A DNA stretch of 64,000 bases from an uncultured Acidobacteriota bacterium (GCA_903847975.1 CAINFC010000138.1:1-64000); one strand, 5' to 3'. Shown: positions 6,310 through 17,073, counted from the first letter of the stretch. Notes: a model not told the origin generated them from the sequence alone. Program-made: numbers and translations.

Positions 6310-7503
6310 ATGGTATTAGCGGATCGTATTCAGCAGGTTGCGGCCTCCCCCACTATGGGATTGGACGCCAAAGCCAAGGCGTTGAAGGCCGCGGGTGTGG
6401 ATGTGATCAGCTTCGGGGTTGGCGAGCCGGATTTCGATACCCCGGCGCACGTCAAGGAGGCCGGAATCAAAGCCATCGAAGGCAATTTCACCCGATATAC
6501 CGCGGTCGAAGGCATCCCCGAGCTGAAAAAGGCGATTGTGGAGAAATTCGCCCGAGACAACCAGCTGACCTACACGCCGGAGCAGATTGTGGTCAACTGC
6601 GGAGGCAAGCATACCATTTACAACCTGACCCAGGTCCTCTTCCAGGAAGGCGACGAGGTCATCATTCCCGCTCCCTACTGGGTTTCCTATCCGCCGATGG
6701 TGATCCTGGCCGGAGCACGGCCGGTGATCGTTTCCACCCGGGAAGCCAACGGCTTCAAGCTGACGGCCGAGGAGCTCAAGGCGGCCATTACCCCGGCTAC
6801 CAAAGCCTTGATTCTGAACTCACCCTCCAATCCGACCGGAGCCGTATATACCCGCGAAGACCTGCAAGCCATTGCCGGCGTACTGCTGGAGAACAAGATC
6901 TGGGTTATTTCCGATGACATCTACGAAAAGATCATTTTCGACGGAATCCGCTTTTTCAATCTGGCCAACCTGCATCCGGACCTGAAGCCCCGCACGATCA
7001 TCGCCCACGGCGTAGCCAAGACATATGCTATGACCGGCTGGCGGATCGGATACATGGCCGCTCCCAAAGAGGTTGCCTCGGCGGTCAGCAAGCTGCAGAG
7101 CCAGTCGACTTCCAATCCCTGCTCCATCGCTCAGAAGGCTGCCGTGGCAGCTCTGAACGGACCCCAGGATTCGGTGCAGGCCATGGTGGCGGCCTTTGAT
7201 GAGCGGCGCCGGTTCCTGGTGGAGACCCTGAACCGCATGGAAGGGGTGCGCTGCGGTACGCCCGGCGGTGCCTTTTACGTGTTTCCGAACGTGAGCTCCT
7301 ATTACGGAAAGAGCTGCCAAGGCAGGACCATCCACGGCTCCTCGGACCTTTCCGACTATCTGCTGGAGGAAGCCCGGATTGCCGTCGTTCCCGGTTCGGC
7401 TTTCGGCGACGATACCTGCGTGCGACTGAGCTACGCCATTTCGCTGGAGGATAACCGGCGGGGGCTGGAGCGCATGGCGGAAGCCCTGTCGCGCCTGAAA
7501 TAA
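6310..7503 (+). CDS. Class I pyridoxal-phosphate aminotransferase (aspartate aminotransferase type)
   Basis: This enzyme is predicted to transfer the amino group of aspartate (or a related amino acid) to 2-oxoglutarate, linking oxaloacetate with amino-acid synthesis. The 397 residues show the fold-type I signature: SPSNPTG around 171-177, SDDIY at 201-205 and the PLP-binding Lys237 in GVAKTYAMTGWRIGY, which is typical of the aspartate aminotransferase I-gamma group. AAGGAG at 6296-6301 lies eight bases before ATG 6310, ruling out the longer form from 6268. It precedes PEP carboxykinase, which consumes oxaloacetate; a hairpin between them suggests separate transcripts. Substrate choice within the group (aspartate, prephenate, aromatic amino acids) is not certain. 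Confidence 0.9.
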   Translation: MVLADRIQQVAASPTMGLDAKAKALKAAGVDVISFGVGEPDFDTPAHVKEAGIKAIEGNFTRYTAVEGIPELKKAIVEKFARDNQLTYTPEQIVVNCGGKHTIYNLTQVLFQEGDEVIIPAPYWVSYPPMVILAGARPVIVSTREANGFKLTAEELKAAITPATKALILNSPSNPTGAVYTREDLQAIAGVLLENKIWVISDDIYEKIIFDGIRFFNLANLHPDLKPRTIIAHGVAKTYAMTGWRIGYMAAPKEVASAVSKLQSQSTSNPCSIAQKAAVAALNGPQDSVQAMVAAFDERRRFLVETLNRMEGVRCGTPGGAFYVFPNVSSYYGKSCQGRTIHGSSDLSDYLLEEARIAVVPGSAFGDDTCVRLSYAISLEDNRRGLERMAEALSRLK

Positions 7504-7526
7504 GCTTTATCTGCGATCATGAGGGG

Positions 7527-7552
7527 GGCAAACCGCAATGTTTGCCGTAAAT
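7527..7552 (+). terminator. Possible terminator after the aminotransferase gene
   Basis: GGCAAAC (7527-7533) and GTTTGCC (7540-7546) form a 7-bp stem with a 6-base loop, followed by a weak A/T tract (TAAATTTT). It lies between the aminotransferase stop and the PEP carboxykinase start. Confidence 0.4.
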
Positions 7553-7581
7553 TTTAACCGTTTTTCGGGGGATTGATTACA

Positions 7582-9375
<1,794 letters not shown>

Positions 9376-9658
9376 CCTTTAGCGTCCTCGCAGCAATTCG
9401 CAAGATCTCGAGAAAGCCCTCCGGAAAGGGCTTCGCAACACAGCCCCGGGGTTGGCGCACGTCGCGCCTGCCCTGGGGTGGGATGTGCGGATGGGACAAC
9501 CTGTAAGGATTGCGCAGAATCCAGCCATGCCAGGTTGTCGATCTGAAACCGGCCATCTGTTCCCGTGTTTCGCTCCACCGCTGTTTCCGCTGCCGCTTCC
9601 CTCCTCCCACTTCGCTTGCTGTTGCATCCGCCGGTATTCGGCCTTCGTTCTTCGTAGT
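9376..9658. other. Non-coding remnant region with REP-like palindrome
   Basis: No gene with support is seen. A GC-rich palindromic block near 9440-9476 (CCCCGGGGTTGGCGC and its imperfect complement) resembles the unit at 38-69. The stretch lies directly downstream of the decayed DUF4338 gene and may hold the end of the element that carried it. Open frames on both strands here look like chance. Confidence 0.4.
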
Positions 9659-10091
9659 TCATGGCCCCAATCTCCTCCGGAAGTCGCCCCGTAATGGTTG
9701 GAGATACACGTCTTTGGCCGGAACCTGCTGGTGAGGATAACGGTCCTGCCGGCTGCTCGCTTTATTTTCCCGGACATGAATCCAGTTGACCGCCCGGCAG
9801 CAATTGCCCTGGAATCGTTGCCGTTCCGCGAAAGTTTTCACCCGCAGGATCGGATGCCCCAATTTTTTGCCGGTCATGGGATAATCGATCCAGGGTCTGA
9901 CCCAATAGCCGGCTGGCCAGATGCGGCTCCCGTACCGAGGGTCGAATCAGAGCCCGCGCATTGTTCGTTACCCAAGGGAGCCCTTGGCATCGTTGGGCCG
10001 CCGCCCAGCCGATATATTCATCCCAGGCCGCGCACTTCCAGTCGGCCATCGAAGCGAAAGGAAAAGGGCAGGGTAATCGCTGCCGCTCCGC
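9659..10091 (-). pseudogene. Decayed DUF4338 (DruA-like) gene fragment
   Basis: Two overlapping minus-strand frames together match the C-terminal half of the DUF4338 family, found beside insertion sequences and, as DruA, in Druantia-type loci. The first part (about 10091-9880) reads WKCAAWDEYIGW...NNARALIRPSVREPHLASRLLG. After one extra base in the A6 tract near 9873 the frame continues as LGHPILRVKTF...RFQGNCCRAVNWIHV and ends YLQPLRGDFRRRL, corresponding to the family's ETF-x-RFRGTCYRAANW and LYPL-x-DFR endings. The N-terminal half is missing: the fragment stops where the PqqD-like gene ends. The frameshift and truncation make it a pseudogene; loss of family residues supports long decay. 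The family call is from memory of conserved segments. Confidence 0.75.
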
Positions 10092-10355
10092 TCAGGTCAA
10101 TGCTCCTGCCTCCCTGAGCTTTCTCAGAAACGAGTCGAGATCGTGGCGCGCTTCTTTCATCGACACCTGGTATTCCGAGACAATGATATCGGCGATGTCG
10201 ACGACGCTTTGGTTGGAAATCAGCAATTCAATAATGCGCGTGCCGAGAGCATTGAGAACCAGCACCCGGCCGCTGTCGGCAAGCACCATCACGGCCACAC
10301 CGTCGATCGTCTGCATGGCCACCTGGGGGTGAAGGGAGAGGTGCTCATCCTTCAT
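10092..10355 (-). CDS. PqqD-like RiPP recognition protein
   Basis: PqqD-like proteins bind the leader of a precursor peptide and present it to a radical SAM enzyme (RRE fold). The 87 residues match the family: HPQVAMQTIDGVAVMVLADSGRVLVLNALGTRIIELL, then a helical part with D-I-I-x-x-Y and a final LREAGAL. ATG 10355 has GGAGG seven bases upstream and overlaps the end of the kinase-like gene by 11 bases, so the two are coupled. It is the last gene of the minus-strand peptide cluster. PQQ synthesis itself is unlikely because pqqA, pqqB and pqqC are absent. Confidence 0.88.
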   Translation of the reverse strand: MKDEHLSLHPQVAMQTIDGVAVMVLADSGRVLVLNALGTRIIELLISNQSVVDIADIIVSEYQVSMKEARHDLDSFLRKLREAGALT

Positions 10356-11166
10356 GGATTTCCCTCCAGAACCCAGCGTCGGGACGAAAGTGCAAGGCGC
10401 GCACGGGAACTCGTTCGTGGATCTCCCGGCATAAGGTCATCACGCGCTGGGCTCGCCCGACATCCGTAATGATAAAAGGAACGCAGGCCAGCAGACGGGC
10501 GATGGCTTCCGGACCGGTGAGGCCGGCTACGCGGTGCTGCGGCGCTTGGACCAGGGCCAACAGGCAGTGTAGACCGGCGGATTGGTTCACTCGTGGCGCT
10601 TCGAGGAAATCACCGCGAAAAGGCACGCCAAATAATCGAACCTTACTGCCCTGAATTTTCAGGATGATCAGGTCATCACTCAGCACCGTATCATCCAGAG
10701 AGAGTCGTGCCACCGTCGTCTTGCCGCTGCCGGATGGGCCCAAAAAGACATACCCAAGGTCATGGCGAATTATTCCCGCGGCATGCAACAGCAATCCGCC
10801 GGCGCGCAGGCACAGATGCGCATAAAGCAGGCGCAGGAAATTTTCTATATCTATCCCCGGTGCGATCTCCAGGAATGCCTCTCCGCGTTCCAGGTCTATC
10901 CATCCGGCATCGAAATAAGAGCGGTAGTGCAGCCGGCCCCCACGTTCCGTGCATTCGATGATCCACCTTCCCGGCTTCATGGGAATGAATTGCGCCCGGT
11001 GGTTGACCTGCACCTGAAGGATCGCCTGCGGATTTTGATTGATAACGATGAACTCGGCATAGCGCGCGGTTACCGCCCTTCTTAACGAGGGGTCGCCAAT
11101 GGCCAGCGCCACGGTGATACCGGCCAGGTTAAGTTCTATTGCCGGCTCAGAAAAATTCAAGGCCAT
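10345..11166 (-). CDS. HPr-kinase-like protein of a RiPP cluster
   Basis: A 273-residue protein with a C-terminal HprK-like kinase fold: Walker A GPSGSGKTT at 143-151, an SDD motif at 163-165 in the usual position of the catalytic acid, and a G-x-PF-x-G segment near 174-180. The first 120 residues are a divergent N-terminal domain. HprK-like proteins occur with PqqD and radical SAM genes in SynChlorMet-type cassettes, and as lasso-peptide kinases (PadeK/ThcoK type) that phosphorylate a C-terminal serine. The gene starts 12 bases after the small peptide gene, which ends in Ser-Ser. Peptide phosphorylation is therefore a reasonable but untested role; true HPr kinase is less likely in this context. 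Confidence 0.8.
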   Translation of the reverse strand: MALNFSEPAIELNLAGITVALAIGDPSLRRAVTARYAEFIVINQNPQAILQVQVNHRAQFIPMKPGRWIIECTERGGRLHYRSYFDAGWIDLERGEAFLEIAPGIDIENFLRLLYAHLCLRAGGLLLHAAGIIRHDLGYVFLGPSGSGKTTVARLSLDDTVLSDDLIILKIQGSKVRLFGVPFRGDFLEAPRVNQSAGLHCLLALVQAPQHRVAGLTGPEAIARLLACVPFIITDVGRAQRVMTLCREIHERVPVRALHFRPDAGFWREIHEG

Positions 11167-11178
11167 GGAATCCTGGGC

Positions 11179-11385
11179 TTAGCTGGAGATAGGCCCTTGA
11201 GGGCAAAATCCGGGATTGCCCTTTGCCGGCGGCGAGGGAGCGCAAACTGCTGTTTGCATAACCTCCAGGTCCGAAATATAGACGATCTGCGGCGCTTCAT
11301 ATTTCTTTTTTAGGGGCTTTTCCGCCGATCCGAAGCTCCCGGTCCCATTGGGATCACCCGGTAGACAAGGCAAAGGGTCGCTCAT
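11179..11385 (-). CDS. Candidate RiPP precursor peptide
   Basis: A 68-residue peptide between the radical SAM and HprK-like genes. GAGGAGG (complement of 11394-11400) lies eight bases before ATG 11385, so this start is preferred over the in-frame GTG at 11391. The middle part contains KKKYEAPQI (Tyr29-x-x-Pro32-x-Ile34), which resembles the YxxPxL leader motif read by PqqD-type recognition proteins in lasso-peptide pathways. The C-terminal tail after ISDLEVM is rich in Pro and Gly, holds Cys48 and Cys61, and ends GPISS. These are natural targets for thioether or other crosslinks and for serine phosphorylation. No homologue is recognised; precursor status is inferred from size, position and motif. 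Confidence 0.72.
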   Translation of the reverse strand: MSDPLPCLPGDPNGTGSFGSAEKPLKKKYEAPQIVYISDLEVMQTAVCAPSPPAKGNPGFCPQGPISS

Positions 11386-11418
11386 CAACACATCCTCCTC
11401 ACGGCAATTTTCTTGCGC

Positions 11419-12543
11419 TCAACACGGTCCATGGTATGGGGCCGCCAGATCGCGTAAATGCGCCGGAATGGGAAAATCGGCCGGCAGCACACCCTGCTCG
11501 ACCATTACCTGACGCCGGGCCAGCGCTTCGCGGCAGTCGGCAGACGCCGGTCCCTGCCAGTCTCCGTCTTCCACCTGGGCCAACCCGCAGCAGCGCAGGC
11601 ACTGATGCCGCAACTCGCATGACCGGCAAACCGGCAGCCGGCCGATCGTCAGGCTGCGGATCTCCTGCCAAATGGGTGCTTCTTCCCAAATGCTCCGGAG
11701 CGGGCGGGTGCAGAGATTGCCTGCCGACTGGCGCAGCTGCACGCAAGGAAAGACGTTGCCGAAAGGATCGATGGCCAGCGAGTTCAGGCCAATCTTGCAA
11801 GTGCGTCCATCGGGCGCAACGCAGCGATCCACCCAGGCATCTCCCTCCAGAATTTCGCGAAACAGCCGGACCAGCTGATCGTAGGTCAGACGGTGCTCCA
11901 GCGGCGAAAGGTCGCCGTTATCCCTGGGCGTGATCGTCGTGCTGAAATGAAACTGGGCCCCCAGGTCGTCAGCCAGCTTTTCCATCTCGCGCCGTTCCTG
12001 CCAATTCTCGCGCATCAATGGAACCTTCATCTTTGTCCGCACGCCGCGCTCGCGCAGCAAGTCCAATGCCCCGATGGCCATCTCCCAGGACCGTTGCCGT
12101 CCCGTAATTTGATCGTGCCTTTCCGGCGAGATGCTGTAAACGCTGATTTCAACCGCATAGGGATGCAGTGCGGCGATGCGGTCCGCCACCGTTGGATTGA
12201 TTAGGATCCCATTGGTGAACAGCCGGAGCAGGAGGCGTCGGGATCGGGCATACGCAGCGATCTGAAAAAAATCGCGCCGCACCAAAATCTCGCCTCCCGA
12301 AAGTAAAAGATTCAGGGCTCCCAGGTCCACCAGTTCATCCACCACGCGGAAACAGTCGACCGTGGACAGCTCACCCGGTACCTCCGTATTGGACGGCAGG
12401 ATATTCACATAGCAATGCGAGCAGCGTTCATTGCAGCGATAGGTCAGTTCCCAATGAACGGAGAGCAGGCGATGAGTCTGCTCGGTTCCGGAGACGAGTT
12501 GCTCGTAAATGGCGGCAGGACGGCTTGTTCGATCAGTGCCCAC
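11419..12543 (-). CDS. Radical SAM/SPASM peptide-modifying enzyme
   Basis: A 374-residue enzyme with the radical SAM motif CNERCSHC (Cys37, Cys41, Cys44), the LLSGGE segment, and a full seven-cysteine SPASM signature near the C-terminus (CX12GX4C, then CX2CX5CX3C, then a final Cys in SADC). SPASM enzymes bind two extra iron-sulfur clusters and usually modify ribosomal peptides. The next gene downstream encodes the likely substrate. The start is GTG 12543, which has no good ribosome-binding site of its own; an SD-preceded 20-codon ORF in the same frame ends nine bases upstream (see 12553-12615), so translation may be coupled. The exact chemistry (thioether, C-C link, epimerisation) cannot be told. 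Confidence 0.9.
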   Translation of the reverse strand: MGTDRTSRPAAIYEQLVSGTEQTHRLLSVHWELTYRCNERCSHCYVNILPSNTEVPGELSTVDCFRVVDELVDLGALNLLLSGGEILVRRDFFQIAAYARSRRLLLRLFTNGILINPTVADRIAALHPYAVEISVYSISPERHDQITGRQRSWEMAIGALDLLRERGVRTKMKVPLMRENWQERREMEKLADDLGAQFHFSTTITPRDNGDLSPLEHRLTYDQLVRLFREILEGDAWVDRCVAPDGRTCKIGLNSLAIDPFGNVFPCVQLRQSAGNLCTRPLRSIWEEAPIWQEIRSLTIGRLPVCRSCELRHQCLRCCGLAQVEDGDWQGPASADCREALARRQVMVEQGVLPADFPIPAHLRDLAAPYHGPC

Positions 12544-12552
12544 GGGCCTATT

Positions 12553-12615
12553 TTAAACCGGCCGCAGGGGAAGATCAATAAAAACAGGAACCGCAATGAT
12601 CCCTTTTAATTTCAT
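12553..12615 (-). CDS. SD-preceded 20-codon ORF ahead of the radical SAM gene
   Basis: ATG 12615 is preceded by a strong GGAGG, the best ribosome-binding site in this area. It encodes MKLKGIIAVPVFIDLPLRPV and stops at TAA 12553-12555. The stop is followed by three codons and then the GTG of the radical SAM gene in the same frame. It may be a leader that couples translation, or the true N-terminus of the enzyme interrupted by a stop codon. No homology is recognised. Confidence 0.45.
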   Translation of the reverse strand: MKLKGIIAVPVFIDLPLRPV

Positions 12616-12870
12616 GGTTCCTCCGTTATTGTTCCTGAAATAAATGAAGTCATTTTTTGGACTGCATCAAATCGTAATTGAGGTCGACAACAAAGCGAGC
12701 CACGCAGCAACTCTTTCCAAGGTGTCTCAGGGCAGTCCATGTCAAGGTATCGCCGGGCAAAACCGGCGGGCCTTGGAATGTAGAGAAGCTGGGGTGCCGG
12801 AAACGATCGGGAATTTCCATGGTCGGCGGATAAATCGGATGAAGCTGTAAAAAGTATGTATTGTAATGCT
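12616..12870. other. Non-coding region upstream of the peptide cluster
   Basis: No gene is supported here. It should contain the minus-strand promoter of the peptide cluster; TTGATG-type -35 elements can be found about 60 bases before ATG 12615, but no convincing -10 box pairs with them. Confidence 0.35.
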
Positions 12871-13017
12871 TTGCCGTCCCTTACGGGACTTTCGTATGTG
12901 CCGCACAGGGCGAAATAGCGGATATCGAACCGTTGTGCTTGGCCATGGCCTCGGGATGTCTCGCGTAAACCGGCACAGGACGGTTATTCCGAGGCAAAGT
13001 CCCGTCGGGGACGGCAA
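12871..13017 (-). repeat. 146-bp inverted-repeat element, copy B
   Basis: Reverse-orientation copy of the element at 122-267. Its ends are near-perfect inverted repeats: 19 of 22 bases agree between the left end (TTGCCGTCCCTTACGGGAC...) and the complement of the right end. Together the two copies bracket a 12.6-kb stretch that includes the peptide cluster. The bases after it (13018-13090) contain a GCCGGGTTGG...GGGACGGCACAGCC segment that also has a counterpart after copy A (near 293-345). Confidence 0.7.
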
Positions 13018-13093
13018 GATTATAACCCGGGAATTGGTTGCCGGGTTGGCTCCAACCGGGACGGCACAGCCAGACCAAAGCGACGGATGGGAG

Positions 13094-14359
13094 CTAGGCT
13101 TTGCGGGAAATGGTGGCGCCCAGGGCCTGCAGCTTTTCCTCGATCCGCTCGTAGCCCCGATCCAGGTGATAGATGCGATCGATGCAGGTCTCCCCGTCGG
13201 CTACCAGGGCGGCAAGGATCAGGCAGGCGCTGGCCCGCAAGTCGGAAGCCAGCACGTTGGCGCCGGCCAGGGGCGTCTTCCCGCGGACAATGGCCTGACG
13301 CCCGTCGACCTTGATGTCGGCTCCCATGCGCAGCAGCTCGCCGACATGCATGAAGCGGTTTTCGAAGATGTTTTCGGTCAGCACGGCCACCCCGTCCGCC
13401 TGGGTCATCAGGCTCATGTACTGGGCCTGCATGTCGGTGGCAAATCCGGGGTAGGGCTGGGTGATCATGTCGCAGGCCTGCAGGCGGCTTCCCGGGCGCA
13501 CCCGGACGGTGGTCTCATCGAGCTGGTCGACCGGCACGCCGGCTTCCGAAAGCTTCTGAATGAAAGCGGAAAGGTGCGCGGGGACGCAACGGCCGATTAC
13601 CACGTCCCCCCGGGTGATGGCCCCGGCCATCAGGAAGGTGCCGGCCTCGATGCGGTCCGGAATGATGCGATGCCGTGCACCGCCCAGCCGCTCCACTCCC
13701 TGGATGGTGATCACCGGCGTGCCCGCCCCCTGGATCCGGGCGCCCATGGCATTGAGCAGGTGGGCCAGGTCGGTGATCTCCGGCTCCTGGGCGGCGTTGC
13801 GCAGCACGGTTTGCCCTTCGGCCAGCGTCGCGGCCATCATCAGGTTTTCCGTGCCGGTGACGGTGACCATGTCAAAATAGATTTCCGCGCCCTGTAATCG
13901 CGGGGCGGCGACGTCCACATAGCCGTGGTCGGAGGAAACCCGGGCCCCCAGCTTTTCGAACCCCTTGAGGTGCAGGTTGATCGGACGGGTTCCGATGGCG
14001 CAGCCTCCCGGCATGGAAACCCGCGCTTTCCCTTCCCGGGCCAGAAGCGGCCCCAGGACCAGGACCGACGCCCGCATGGTCTTCACCAGGTCATAAGGGG
14101 CGACGACGGACTTGAGCCGGTCGGCGCAGATCGAGGCCCTCCTGGCGGGGGAGGAAAAATCGGTATCGGCCTCGGCGCCCAGAACCTGCAGCAGGCCCAG
14201 CAGAGTGCGAATGTCCCGGACCGCCGGTAAATTCTCCAGAGTGACGGTGTCCCGGGTCAGAAGGCAGGCGGCAATCAGGGGCAGCGCGGAGTTCTTGGCA
14301 CCGCTCACCTCGACCCGGCCCTCCAGCGGGCGTCCGCCGGAGATGATCAGCTTATCCAT
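13094..14359 (-). CDS. murA: UDP-N-acetylglucosamine 1-carboxyvinyltransferase
   Basis: MurA adds enolpyruvate from PEP to UDP-N-acetylglucosamine, the first committed step of peptidoglycan synthesis in the cytoplasm. The 421 residues match the family throughout: [13 protein letters not shown] with Lys22 and Asn23, the loop [11 protein letters not shown] with catalytic Cys120 (the fosfomycin target), and the C-terminal [14 protein letters not shown] segment. AAGGAG precedes ATG 14359. It begins 21 bases after glcF and is probably co-transcribed with the glycolate oxidase genes, an odd pairing that likely has no metabolic meaning. Confidence 0.97.
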
Positions 14360-14380
14360 TCCGTTTCTCCTTGCTTGGGA

Positions 14381-15766
14381 TCAGGGTTTCCTGCCTAGAC
14401 GGTACTGCGCGGCCAGCAGTTCGGCCGGGTGGCGCACCTCCACGGGCACCCCGAACCGGCGGGCTCCGTAGCGCAGCTGCAGCAGGCAGACCGGATTTCC
14501 GGTGGCCAGAACTTCCGCCCCGGTCGAGGCGATGTCCTTCATCTTTTTTTCCAGGATGCGCATGGAAAGCTCGTACTGCATGATGTTGTAGGTGCCGGCC
14601 CCGCCGCAGCACTGGTCGGCATTGGGCAGCTCCACCCATTCGATGCCGGGAATGGAGCGCAGCACTCGGCGGGGTTCGGCCGACACCTTCTGCCCGTGGA
14701 GCAAATGGCAGGGTTCGTCGTAGGTCAGGCGCTTTTCCAGCCCGGCTTCGGGAGGGGCAAAGCCGATGCGCACCAGGAACTGGGAGATGTCCGCCGTCTG
14801 CGCGGATACCTTTTCCGCCTCGCTCCGCAGGGCAGGGCAGTAATCGGCGGCCCAGCGGCCATATTCCTTGAGCACCGCCCCGCACCCGGCGGCATTGGAA
14901 ATGATGGCGTCGACCTCCAGGGGAGCGAGGACCCCGACATTGGTTTTCATCTGGCGCAGGGCTTCGGCAAAGGCGCCGGAATGGCTCTGCACCGCACCGC
15001 AGCAGCCCTGCCCCTCGGGCACCAGCACCTCGCAGCCGTTGTGCTGGAGGATCTCCACGGTGGCGTGCTGGATGTCGGCCATGGTTTCGTCCATGACGCA
15101 GCCGGTGAAAAAAGCGACTCGGTATTTCCGCTCCCCGCGCGCCGGGTACCGTATCCCTTTTTTCAGCAGGCGGCGGGCGGGGGGGATGTCCGGCAGGAGC
15201 TGCTCCAGCTCCGACCACTTCGGGGAAAGCAGCTTCAGGAGGCCGCTGCGCCGGAGCAGAAAGCGCAGCCCGCACACCTGGTAAAGGCGCAGGGCGCGCG
15301 CCGCCAGGTGCAGGACCCGCGGCCGGCGAAAGATCTGGCCGAAGACCAGGGAGCGAAGGAGGCGCTCCGTCCAGGGGCGTTTGCGGTGCTCCTCGATGGC
15401 CTCCCGGGCTTCCTCCAGAAGCCGCTCGTAGCGGACACCGGCCGGGCAGGCGCTCTCGCAGGCCCGGCAGCCGAGGCAGAGATCGATGTGGTCGGCGATT
15501 CGCGAGTTCCAGGGAATGGTCCCCTCCTGCGCCGCCCGCATCAGAAACAGCCGGCCCCGGGGGGAATCGGACTCGAAGCCGAGCTCGCGATAGGTCGGGC
15601 ACTGCGCCAGGCAAAGCCCGCAGTGCACGCAATCCACGTAGAAGTCCGCTTTTTCCCGGCTTCTTTTTTTCCAGGGAAGGTCTTCCAGACGGCTTTTAGG
15701 CAGATCCGCCGGAGAAGCTCCCGGCGCACCCGCCGGGTGGGGTGTGGATTCCAGGGGGGGCTTCAT
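14381..15766 (-). CDS. glcF: Glycolate oxidase iron-sulfur subunit
   Basis: GlcF passes electrons from the flavin subunits to the quinone pool. This 461-residue protein has two [4Fe-4S] motifs near the N-terminus, CVHCGLCLAQCP and CLGCRACESACP, followed by two CCG-type domains (GCCGAVQSHSG and CCGGAGTYN). The ATG overlaps the glcE stop (ATGA at 15763-15766), so translation is coupled. Length is slightly above the usual 410-430 because of an N-terminal Pro-rich extension. With glcD and glcE it forms the standard three-subunit (S)-2-hydroxyacid oxidase; glycolate is the classical substrate, D-lactate another possibility. Confidence 0.93.
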   Translation of the reverse strand: MKPPLESTPHPAGAPGASPADLPKSRLEDLPWKKRSREKADFYVDCVHCGLCLAQCPTYRELGFESDSPRGRLFLMRAAQEGTIPWNSRIADHIDLCLGCRACESACPAGVRYERLLEEAREAIEEHRKRPWTERLLRSLVFGQIFRRPRVLHLAARALRLYQVCGLRFLLRRSGLLKLLSPKWSELEQLLPDIPPARRLLKKGIRYPARGERKYRVAFFTGCVMDETMADIQHATVEILQHNGCEVLVPEGQGCCGAVQSHSGAFAEALRQMKTNVGVLAPLEVDAIISNAAGCGAVLKEYGRWAADYCPALRSEAEKVSAQTADISQFLVRIGFAPPEAGLEKRLTYDEPCHLLHGQKVSAEPRRVLRSIPGIEWVELPNADQCCGGAGTYNIMQYELSMRILEKKMKDIASTGAEVLATGNPVCLLQLRYGARRFGVPVEVRHPAELLAAQYRLGRKP

Positions 15767-17073
15767 TGGCGGCCTACGTAACGTCCCGGATTCAATATGC
15801 TTTTGGGATCCAGCTGCTTTTTGATCTGCAGCATCAGTTCCAGCGGCCTTCCTTCCACGCCCCAGACTTCAAAAAGCTCCTTAAGCTCCCGCGGCGCCCG
15901 GGCCAGGATGAGCTCCGCGCGGCGGGTGCGAAGCCGGCGACGCAGGGTTTCCAGCCATGAGGCCAGCTCTGCCCAGGAGCCGTCTTCCGCCGCTCTCCGC
16001 GGGAAGAGCACCCAGAGTAAATTGCAGCCGGCGTAACAGAGCCAGGTGAAGGGGCGGCCGGATCGCTCCGAAAAAGCGCGGCATTCCCGCAGCAGATCCG
16101 CCGTCAGCGAGAAAGGGGCAATGACCTTGAGCAAGACGTCGTCCGGGGAGCGGGAATCGAAGCCGAACCGGGAAATCCGCTGCCAGAAAGGATCCCCGGC
16201 GGATTCTTCGACCCAGCGGATGGCTTCTCCGGCCAGGGGGCCAGCCAGCTCCGAGACCTGGCGGCATTGCCAGGCAACGGATTCCGGGTGTCCGGCAAAC
16301 TGAACAGCCAGCTCGAGGGCCTCCTCCGGGACACCGGCCGGGTCCGTGGCCTCCAGGACCCGTCCGGGGGCGATCACCTGCGAGCGCGGGGCCAGGCCCC
16401 GATCCAGGATCTGCTGCCCGATACGCTGCAGGGCGGAAAAATCGGACTGGCGGATTCTCCCGCTGCATGCATATTCCGCGAGGGGCGCGGTTTTAAGGTG
16501 GAATTCGGTGAAAACTCCGAGCCAGCCCAGCGAGCCGGCATAAAATTTGGAGAGGTCGTAGCCGCTGACATTCTTGACTACCTGGCCGCCGCACTTGGTC
16601 CGGGCCCCTTCGGCGGTGACCACGCGAATGCCCAGGATGTGGTCCCGCAGCCGGCCGTGCTGCAGCCGCATCGGGCCGTAGGCATTGACGGCCACCAGGC
16701 CGCCGATGGTGCTTTCCGGGCCGGCCTCGGGATCGACCGGCAGGAACTGGCGGTGGGCGGCGAGCTCTTCCTGAATACGGTGGAGGGTGCATCCGGCCTG
16801 GACGGTGAGCAGCATGTCATCCGGCCGGCAGGAAACCACCTGGTCCATTCCGGCCAGGGACAGCCCGATATCCGAGGAGCGGGGCGGGTTTCCCCAGTCG
16901 AGATGGCTCCGGCCGCCCATCGGTATGACGGATTGCCCGCGCCCGTTGGCTTCGGCCAGAAGAGCGGCCAGCTCCGCCTCCCCGGCGGGCTGCCGCCAGG
17001 AGCCGATGGTGCGGCCGTCGATGCGCACCGCGGAAAGCGCTTCCTGCGTCTGGGGTGTCCCGGGGGCGCTCAT
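15763..17073 (-). CDS. glcE: Glycolate oxidase FAD-binding subunit GlcE
   Basis: A 436-residue FAD-linked protein of the PCMH type, with PMGGRSHLDWGN near residue 45 and TIGGLVAVNAYGP near 120 as FAD-contact segments. It is the second flavin subunit of the glycolate oxidase complex. ATG 17073 overlaps the glcD stop (ATGA at 17070-17073), which selects it over an upstream in-frame start at 17106; its own stop overlaps the glcF start. The chain is longer than Escherichia coli GlcE (350) but has the same order of motifs. Confidence 0.88.
   Translation of the reverse strand: MSAPGTPQTQEALSAVRIDGRTIGSWRQPAGEAELAALLAEANGRGQSVIPMGGRSHLDWGNPPRSSDIGLSLAGMDQVVSCRPDDMLLTVQAGCTLHRIQEELAAHRQFLPVDPEAGPESTIGGLVAVNAYGPMRLQHGRLRDHILGIRVVTAEGARTKCGGQVVKNVSGYDLSKFYAGSLGWLGVFTEFHLKTAPLAEYACSGRIRQSDFSALQRIGQQILDRGLAPRSQVIAPGRVLEATDPAGVPEEALELAVQFAGHPESVAWQCRQVSELAGPLAGEAIRWVEESAGDPFWQRISRFGFDSRSPDDVLLKVIAPFSLTADLLRECRAFSERSGRPFTWLCYAGCNLLWVLFPRRAAEDGSWAELASWLETLRRRLRTRRAELILARAPRELKELFEVWGVEGRPLELMLQIKKQLDPKSILNPGRYVGRQ

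Follow-up and report, generated by a model that had tools for sequence, protein, structure and literature searches.

The window, a stretch of 64,000 nucleotides, corresponds to contig 138 of an 8.1 Mb genome in 326 contigs from an uncultured Acidobacteriota bacterium whose family and order had no other representative among the genomes compared. It carries four minus-strand genes separated by short gaps or overlapping, as had been described before. The gene at 11419–12543 encodes a radical SAM/SPASM peptide maturase (rSAM) of 374 aa with a GTG start, a CX3CX2C motif and seven auxiliary cysteines. After a gap of 33 bp it is followed by the gene of a 68-aa precursor peptide (11179–11385), which starts with ATG behind the Shine-Dalgarno sequence GAGGAGG and combines a leader containing KKKYEAPQIV (Y-x-x-P) with a C-terminal part that holds two cysteines and a terminal serine. 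The conserved 23 residues at its C-terminus, AVCAPSPPAKGNPGFCPQGPISS (11182–11250), are the probable core, the border between leader and core being approximate. Twelve base pairs separate the peptide gene from that of a P-loop kinase-like protein of the HprK/PEPCK fold (10345–11166, 273 aa), which in turn overlaps by 11 nt with the gene of an 87-aa PqqD-like RiPP recognition element (RRE; 10092–10355). Upstream of the rSAM gene and in the same frame, a minus-strand ORF of 20 codons with a strong Shine-Dalgarno sequence (12553–12615) terminates 9 nt ahead of the GTG. Position 12615, where the cluster had been taken to end, is the ATG of this separate ORF and does not belong to the rSAM gene; the ORF may serve as a translational coupler.

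Among the neighboring ORFs, named by eye from a list spanning 7000–16000, were a MurA-like gene upstream and a PEPCK-like and an aminotransferase-like gene past the other end. Downstream of the cluster, the gene at 9659–10049 had been described as a decayed mobile-type gene; the decay was confirmed in the form of a frameshift, and the gene itself was identified as a remnant of DruA (Druantia-type; PF14236, 8.8e-06, slightly below the family cut-off). The flanking repeat was recovered at 12871–13017 as an element with 22-nt inverted ends that are 91% complementary, of which the source genome holds about 40 copies with 79–86% identity, several of them close to contig ends; by these features it is a MITE- or REP-like element.

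To assess the conservation of the peptide, patterns were derived from its C-terminal half and scanned over 84,980 species genomes. An alignment of five peptide sequences was too divergent for scanning, and a set of three sequences was used instead. This search, which relied on the peptide only, returned seven loci, six in Acidobacteriota records and one in a Myxococcales record. The original prediction had named missing co-occurrence of the peptide with the rSAM gene in related genomes as one outcome that would speak against it; in all seven loci the rSAM and HprK genes adjoined the peptide gene, and a PqqD gene was also called in six of them. AVCAPSPPAKGNPGFCPQGPISS was identical to the corresponding residues of three of these peptides (L165, L166 and L167) at 21/23, 21/23 and 22/23 positions, while 15–16 of the identical core residues were encoded by different codons. 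Near-identity of the residues despite 15–16 synonymous codon differences points to strong purifying selection on the core, and such selection on the last 23 residues in turn indicates that the peptide is a translated product. The diverged codons also rule out that the core is shared because of a recent horizontal transfer. Since the peptide is both conserved and linked to the enzyme genes, the cluster is more than a chance arrangement. This supports a RiPP-type cluster with the 68-aa peptide as its precursor, and we consider it almost certain that the locus is a real RiPP cluster. NCBIfam and Pfam models gave no match to any of ten precursors, and the earlier suggestion of a new peptide class thus retains its plausibility as far as family models can tell.

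The rSAM matched the Pfam families Radical_SAM (PF04055, 2.7e-24) and SPASM (PF13186, 1.7e-07), and its GTG start was backed by the N-terminal alignment with homologues from two other genomes (G376 and G406). Next to the CX3CX2C cysteines (C37/41/44), the alignment of auxiliary cysteines (C249, C267, C306, C309, C315, C318/C319 and C337) bore out the predicted seven-cysteine SPASM signature in full; C318, invariant in all 24 aligned rSAMs, is probably the fourth cysteine of the CX2CX5C block, not C319. The closest folds were those of PqqE (best), SuiB, SkfB and the sactipeptide maturase 5wgg/5why, and the epimerase EpeE was also among the matches. In the rSAM tree, the window enzyme and that of G376 formed one clade (100/99), distant from the clade serving the other cores that end in PISS. 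The rSAMs of these other cores (e.g., those of L165 and L167) keep just three auxiliary cysteines (C249, C267 and C318), and the two maturase types are ∼30–35% identical to each other. Since the window enzyme with its seven auxiliary cysteines falls into a different clade from the three-cysteine enzymes, two kinds of maturase act on almost identical cores, and the core VCAPSPPAKGNPGxCPxGPISS has stayed nearly unchanged while being served by both.

Comparison of the kinase-like protein with Pfam gave weak P-loop matches only. The HprK-related kinases A and B that accompany PqqD (TIGR04352, TIGR04353, TIGR04355) showed a resemblance below the cut-offs: HprK_rel_B was the best NCBIfam match (1.1e-09, 37.8 bits, cut-off 200), and HprK_rel_A reached 16.5 bits (cut-off 200). 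PEPCK and HPr kinase/phosphatase have a common P-loop fold, and an AlphaFold model of the protein (pLDDT 93) was matched by Foldseek to PEPCK (E 1e-8) and to HPr kinase/phosphatase (E 2e-5 to 3e-4). The catalytic residues His128, the P-loop Gly/Lys (GPSGSGKT, residues 143–150) and Asp164, the first of the pair D164-D165, were kept in 98 of 98 aligned HprK homologues. The features of the HPr kinase/phosphatase superfamily, that is, the HprK/PEPCK P-loop fold, the histidine, the P-loop and the aspartate, are therefore present. The PqqD-like protein matched PF05402 (2.4e-12) and gave weak, below-cut-off matches to lasso-type PqqD/B1 models (39.7 and 33.8 bits, cut-offs 70 and 80) and to PqqD_rel_X (14.8 bits, cut-off 35).

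The distribution of the gene set was analyzed in an even draw of 396 Acidobacteriota genomes; HprK-like matches occurred in 125 of them and good rSAM matches in 94. Commonly, the distance between the two genes was a few hundred bp, and HprK-PqqD-rSAM was a frequent order. A profile of the leader only, with seeds picked by eye among peptides adjoining the enzyme genes, detected precursors next to these genes and yielded 44 of them after removal of near-duplicates, with Y-x-x-P in common; the window peptide, itself one of the seeds, scored 6.4e-09. All 44 precursors contain at least two cysteines, most with the last cysteine 5–8 residues from the C-terminus, and the usual spacing from the Tyr/Trp of the Y-x-x-P motif to the first cysteine is 18 residues (19 in the window). 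The terminal residue is serine in 41 of the 44 and threonine in one, against a background of 8.8% (long) and 12.4% (short) terminal serines in ORFs of the same stretches; the enrichment of p ∼1e-33 is inflated by relatedness among the precursors, and the choice of seeds by eye also has to be kept in mind. The terminal-serine site is not universal, since the precursors of one rSAM clade (L088, L089, L103, L120) end in GAR, GARD, GARG or GAQD although the HprK proteins of that clade retain the histidine, the P-loop and Asp-Glu. The idea that loss of the serine goes along with a broken kinase thus found no support. At some loci, e.g., L105, L108 and L141, no HprK gene was present in the stretch read. 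Precursor-like tails with two cysteines are fused to a PqqD domain in L133 (7634–8014), L106 (6959–7387) and L100 (3643–4056), which directly supports a partnership between PqqD and the peptide; such fusions also occur in L104 and L113, and most of these tails end in serine.

Many of these loci also contain a peptidase gene. In 43 of the 109 stretches examined (two are duplicates) there is a large gene whose product carries a Peptidase_C25 (gingipain-type) domain at its C-terminal end, and at 20 of the 56 loci with an identified precursor it lies <1 kb from the precursor gene on the same strand. Locus L146 (G334:C77) combines two sets of enzymes, with precursors of different types, in a stretch of 20 kb, and a separate C25 peptidase accompanies each set. 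In ten genomes checked the domain was rare, usually with one full match and often as the copy adjoining the cluster; a rough chance estimate for the proximity of C25 and precursor, with relatedness ignored, was 1e-41. The N-terminus of the C25 protein is hydrophobic and resembles a signal peptide by eye, and the peptidase of the relatives is thus apparently secreted. Where a separate peptide was missing, a precursor concealed at the C25 N-terminus was ruled out, as no such motif occurs there. No C25 gene lies beside the window cluster; the single C25 match of the source genome is on contig 139, with no recognized RiPP gene next to it. The absence of a protease noted in the original prediction consequently holds for the window cluster, but not for the many relatives in which a C25 gene abuts the precursor gene, and in these relatives the peptidase may process the peptide.

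The source genome holds further gene sets of related types. A second related cluster (L012 4160–10756; G000:C22, ∼48–55 kb) has three rSAM genes, one of which encodes a fusion with an HprK-like domain (650 aa). It further includes a PqqD gene (PF05402, 9.1e-15) and an ORF resembling signal peptidases, and its candidate precursor, ...WVKPLLLVLVRPEPGEVILLNCKGG...CQYGSCSACADVVAS, again has serine as the last residue. On another contig (L014 15–155 and 3909–4088; G000:C123), an HprK-like match and PqqD genes accompany a short ORF, KPWVKPEMTELGHEMTESSAPGGYSPG, whose product shares the leader motif; this is possibly a lasso-type cluster. Altogether twelve PqqD-type matches lie above the cut-off in this genome, which makes several further RiPP systems likely.

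Among the known systems, lasso clusters with a kinase (PadeK, ThcoK) have in common with the window an HprK-like kinase, a discrete PqqD-type RRE and a precursor with a terminal serine. The Y-x-x-P motif of lasso leaders is likewise found in the window peptide. In contrast to lasso clusters, the window has a radical SAM/SPASM enzyme in place of the lasso cyclase and B2 protease, neither of which (the cyclase being Asn-synthase-like) was seen in the four-gene cluster or, by eye, in the ORF list for 7000–16000, and its core contains two cysteines and no Asp or Glu. Sactipeptide and ranthipeptide systems (AlbA, SkfB, CteB, PapB) place a SPASM maturase with auxiliary FeS cysteines beside a cysteine-containing precursor, and both features, the SPASM ligands and the conserved cysteine precursor next to the maturase, are present here. 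Unlike in those systems, the RRE is discrete and not fused into the maturase, a kinase partner is present, and the rSAM scored far below the cut-offs of StsB (116/625 bits), AlbA (76/850) and SkfB (47/300). In the literature accessible without subscription, we found no description of SynChlorMet, of C25/gingipain together with radical SAM, or of the combination of a two-cysteine, terminal-serine peptide with a kinase-like enzyme and C25; in the one paper found to treat HPr kinase together with radical SAM, the kinase sits in lasso clusters.

The original prediction had viewed the locus as a SynChlorMet-type cassette reduced to one rSAM and one peptide. SynChlorMet cassettes combine an HprK-like protein, a PqqD-like protein and SPASM enzymes, with two rSAMs. 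The window cluster shares these protein types and gives weak matches to ScmC, ScmD, ScmE and ScmF (TIGR04248–04251), as would a degenerate cassette that had lost one rSAM and other parts. However, the scores lie ∼4–7 fold under the curated cut-offs (ScmE 97/400 and ScmF 85/400 bits for the rSAM; ScmC 17.2/125, ScmD 20.3/100), the precursor has no family model, and there is a single rSAM (11419–12543) in the cluster, the other rSAM matches of the genome being on other contigs. Since relatives throughout the phylum commonly have one rSAM with HprK, PqqD and a peptide, nothing points to the loss of an rSAM and the set is not a remnant; we abandoned the idea of a reduced cassette as very improbable. 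The rSAM/SPASM enzyme, PqqD-like protein and short peptide are also shared with GeoRSP and mycofactocin, of which, to our knowledge, HprK is not a part. A further reading is that the peptide gives rise to a small redox cofactor or pigment of the PQQ or mycofactocin kind and not to a peptide product, with rSAM and PqqD bringing about the excision of a few residues and the HprK-like protein as an accessory kinase. The mycofactocin maturase is indeed the best NCBIfam match of the rSAM and PqqE its best fold match, but its 140 bits fall well short of the 265 required for mycofactocin (GeoRSP, 85/400), and the entire 23-residue C-terminus is conserved, including the Pro, Gly and Lys between the cysteines, rather than a short donor motif, which leaves a cofactor origin quite unlikely. 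Membership in SynChlorMet, GeoRSP, mycofactocin or lasso systems was ruled out on the curated cut-offs.

Taken together, the locus is a radical SAM RiPP cluster with a probable C-terminal-serine kinase and without a curated precursor family. We propose that the K-x-Y-x-x-P-x-[IV] leader is the part of the 68-aa precursor that PqqD recognizes before it hands the precursor to the radical SAM/SPASM enzyme; this recognition is very likely. The rSAM would then modify the two-cysteine core, which it has a good chance of acting on, most likely by linking C48 and C61 through thioethers to carbons of neighboring residues, a chemistry that we favor by a modest degree. The HprK-like protein, with its complete HPr-kinase-type catalytic set, would place a phosphate on the hydroxyl group of the C-terminal serine. 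PadeK, an HprK-like kinase of lasso clusters, does so on the paeninodin precursor, where this serine is conserved in the lasso clusters that have the kinase (PMC9266682). By this analogy the kinase-like protein probably acts on the terminal serine, and the conserved residue is a specific candidate site for the phosphate gain that had been predicted. Leader removal and export would depend on factors encoded elsewhere, with the adjoining C25 peptidase as a partner in many relatives. To this scheme as a whole, PqqD-guided rSAM, serine kinase and processing elsewhere, we assign a probability of roughly 0.6.

Its two enzymatic steps have to be weighed against other roles. The HprK-like protein might not phosphorylate the peptide and instead regulate the rSAM, PqqD or another protein, or use its P-loop otherwise (e.g., to activate the C-terminal carboxylate), with the serine being kept for protease recognition or the like. 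Such a role would fit the GAR-type clade, in which the catalytic residues are kept without a terminal serine, and a fold at least as close to PEPCK as to HPr kinase, for which reason the fold does not fix the acceptor. The terminal serine recurs in 41 of 44 precursors across diverse cores to which the kinase gene is commonly linked, and PadeK is a proven HprK-like precedent (PMC9266682), which makes such a role unlikely. The two cysteines could likewise do no more than pair in a disulfide or bind a metal, while the rSAM carries out an epimerization or a C–C crosslink. The epimerase EpeE is among the fold matches, and rSAMs on near-identical cores differ in their SPASM cysteines (seven or three), so that homology does not fix the class of reaction. 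Each of the 44 precursors nevertheless has at least two cysteines in a core whose other residues vary, and SPASM RiPP maturases commonly make cysteine thioethers; a disulfide or metal site is thus not the expected outcome, and thioether formation is the chemistry that we retain.

On a wider scale, and tentatively, the clusters may represent an undescribed, phylum-wide RiPP class of Acidobacteriota, in which a PqqD-guided rSAM crosslinks the two-cysteine core, a dedicated HprK-fold kinase phosphorylates the terminal serine and, in many members, a large secreted C25 peptidase is the dedicated partner of the phosphopeptide, either maturing it, using it or being under its control. If this is true, HprK-type phosphorylation of a C-terminal serine would reach beyond lasso peptides to radical SAM peptides. 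A named precursor family would then be available for a gene set found across a hard-to-culture phylum, and this family would be tied to a caspase-like secreted protease. The near-invariant core handled by rSAMs with either seven or three auxiliary cysteines would also constitute a natural experiment on the purpose of the second auxiliary FeS cluster.
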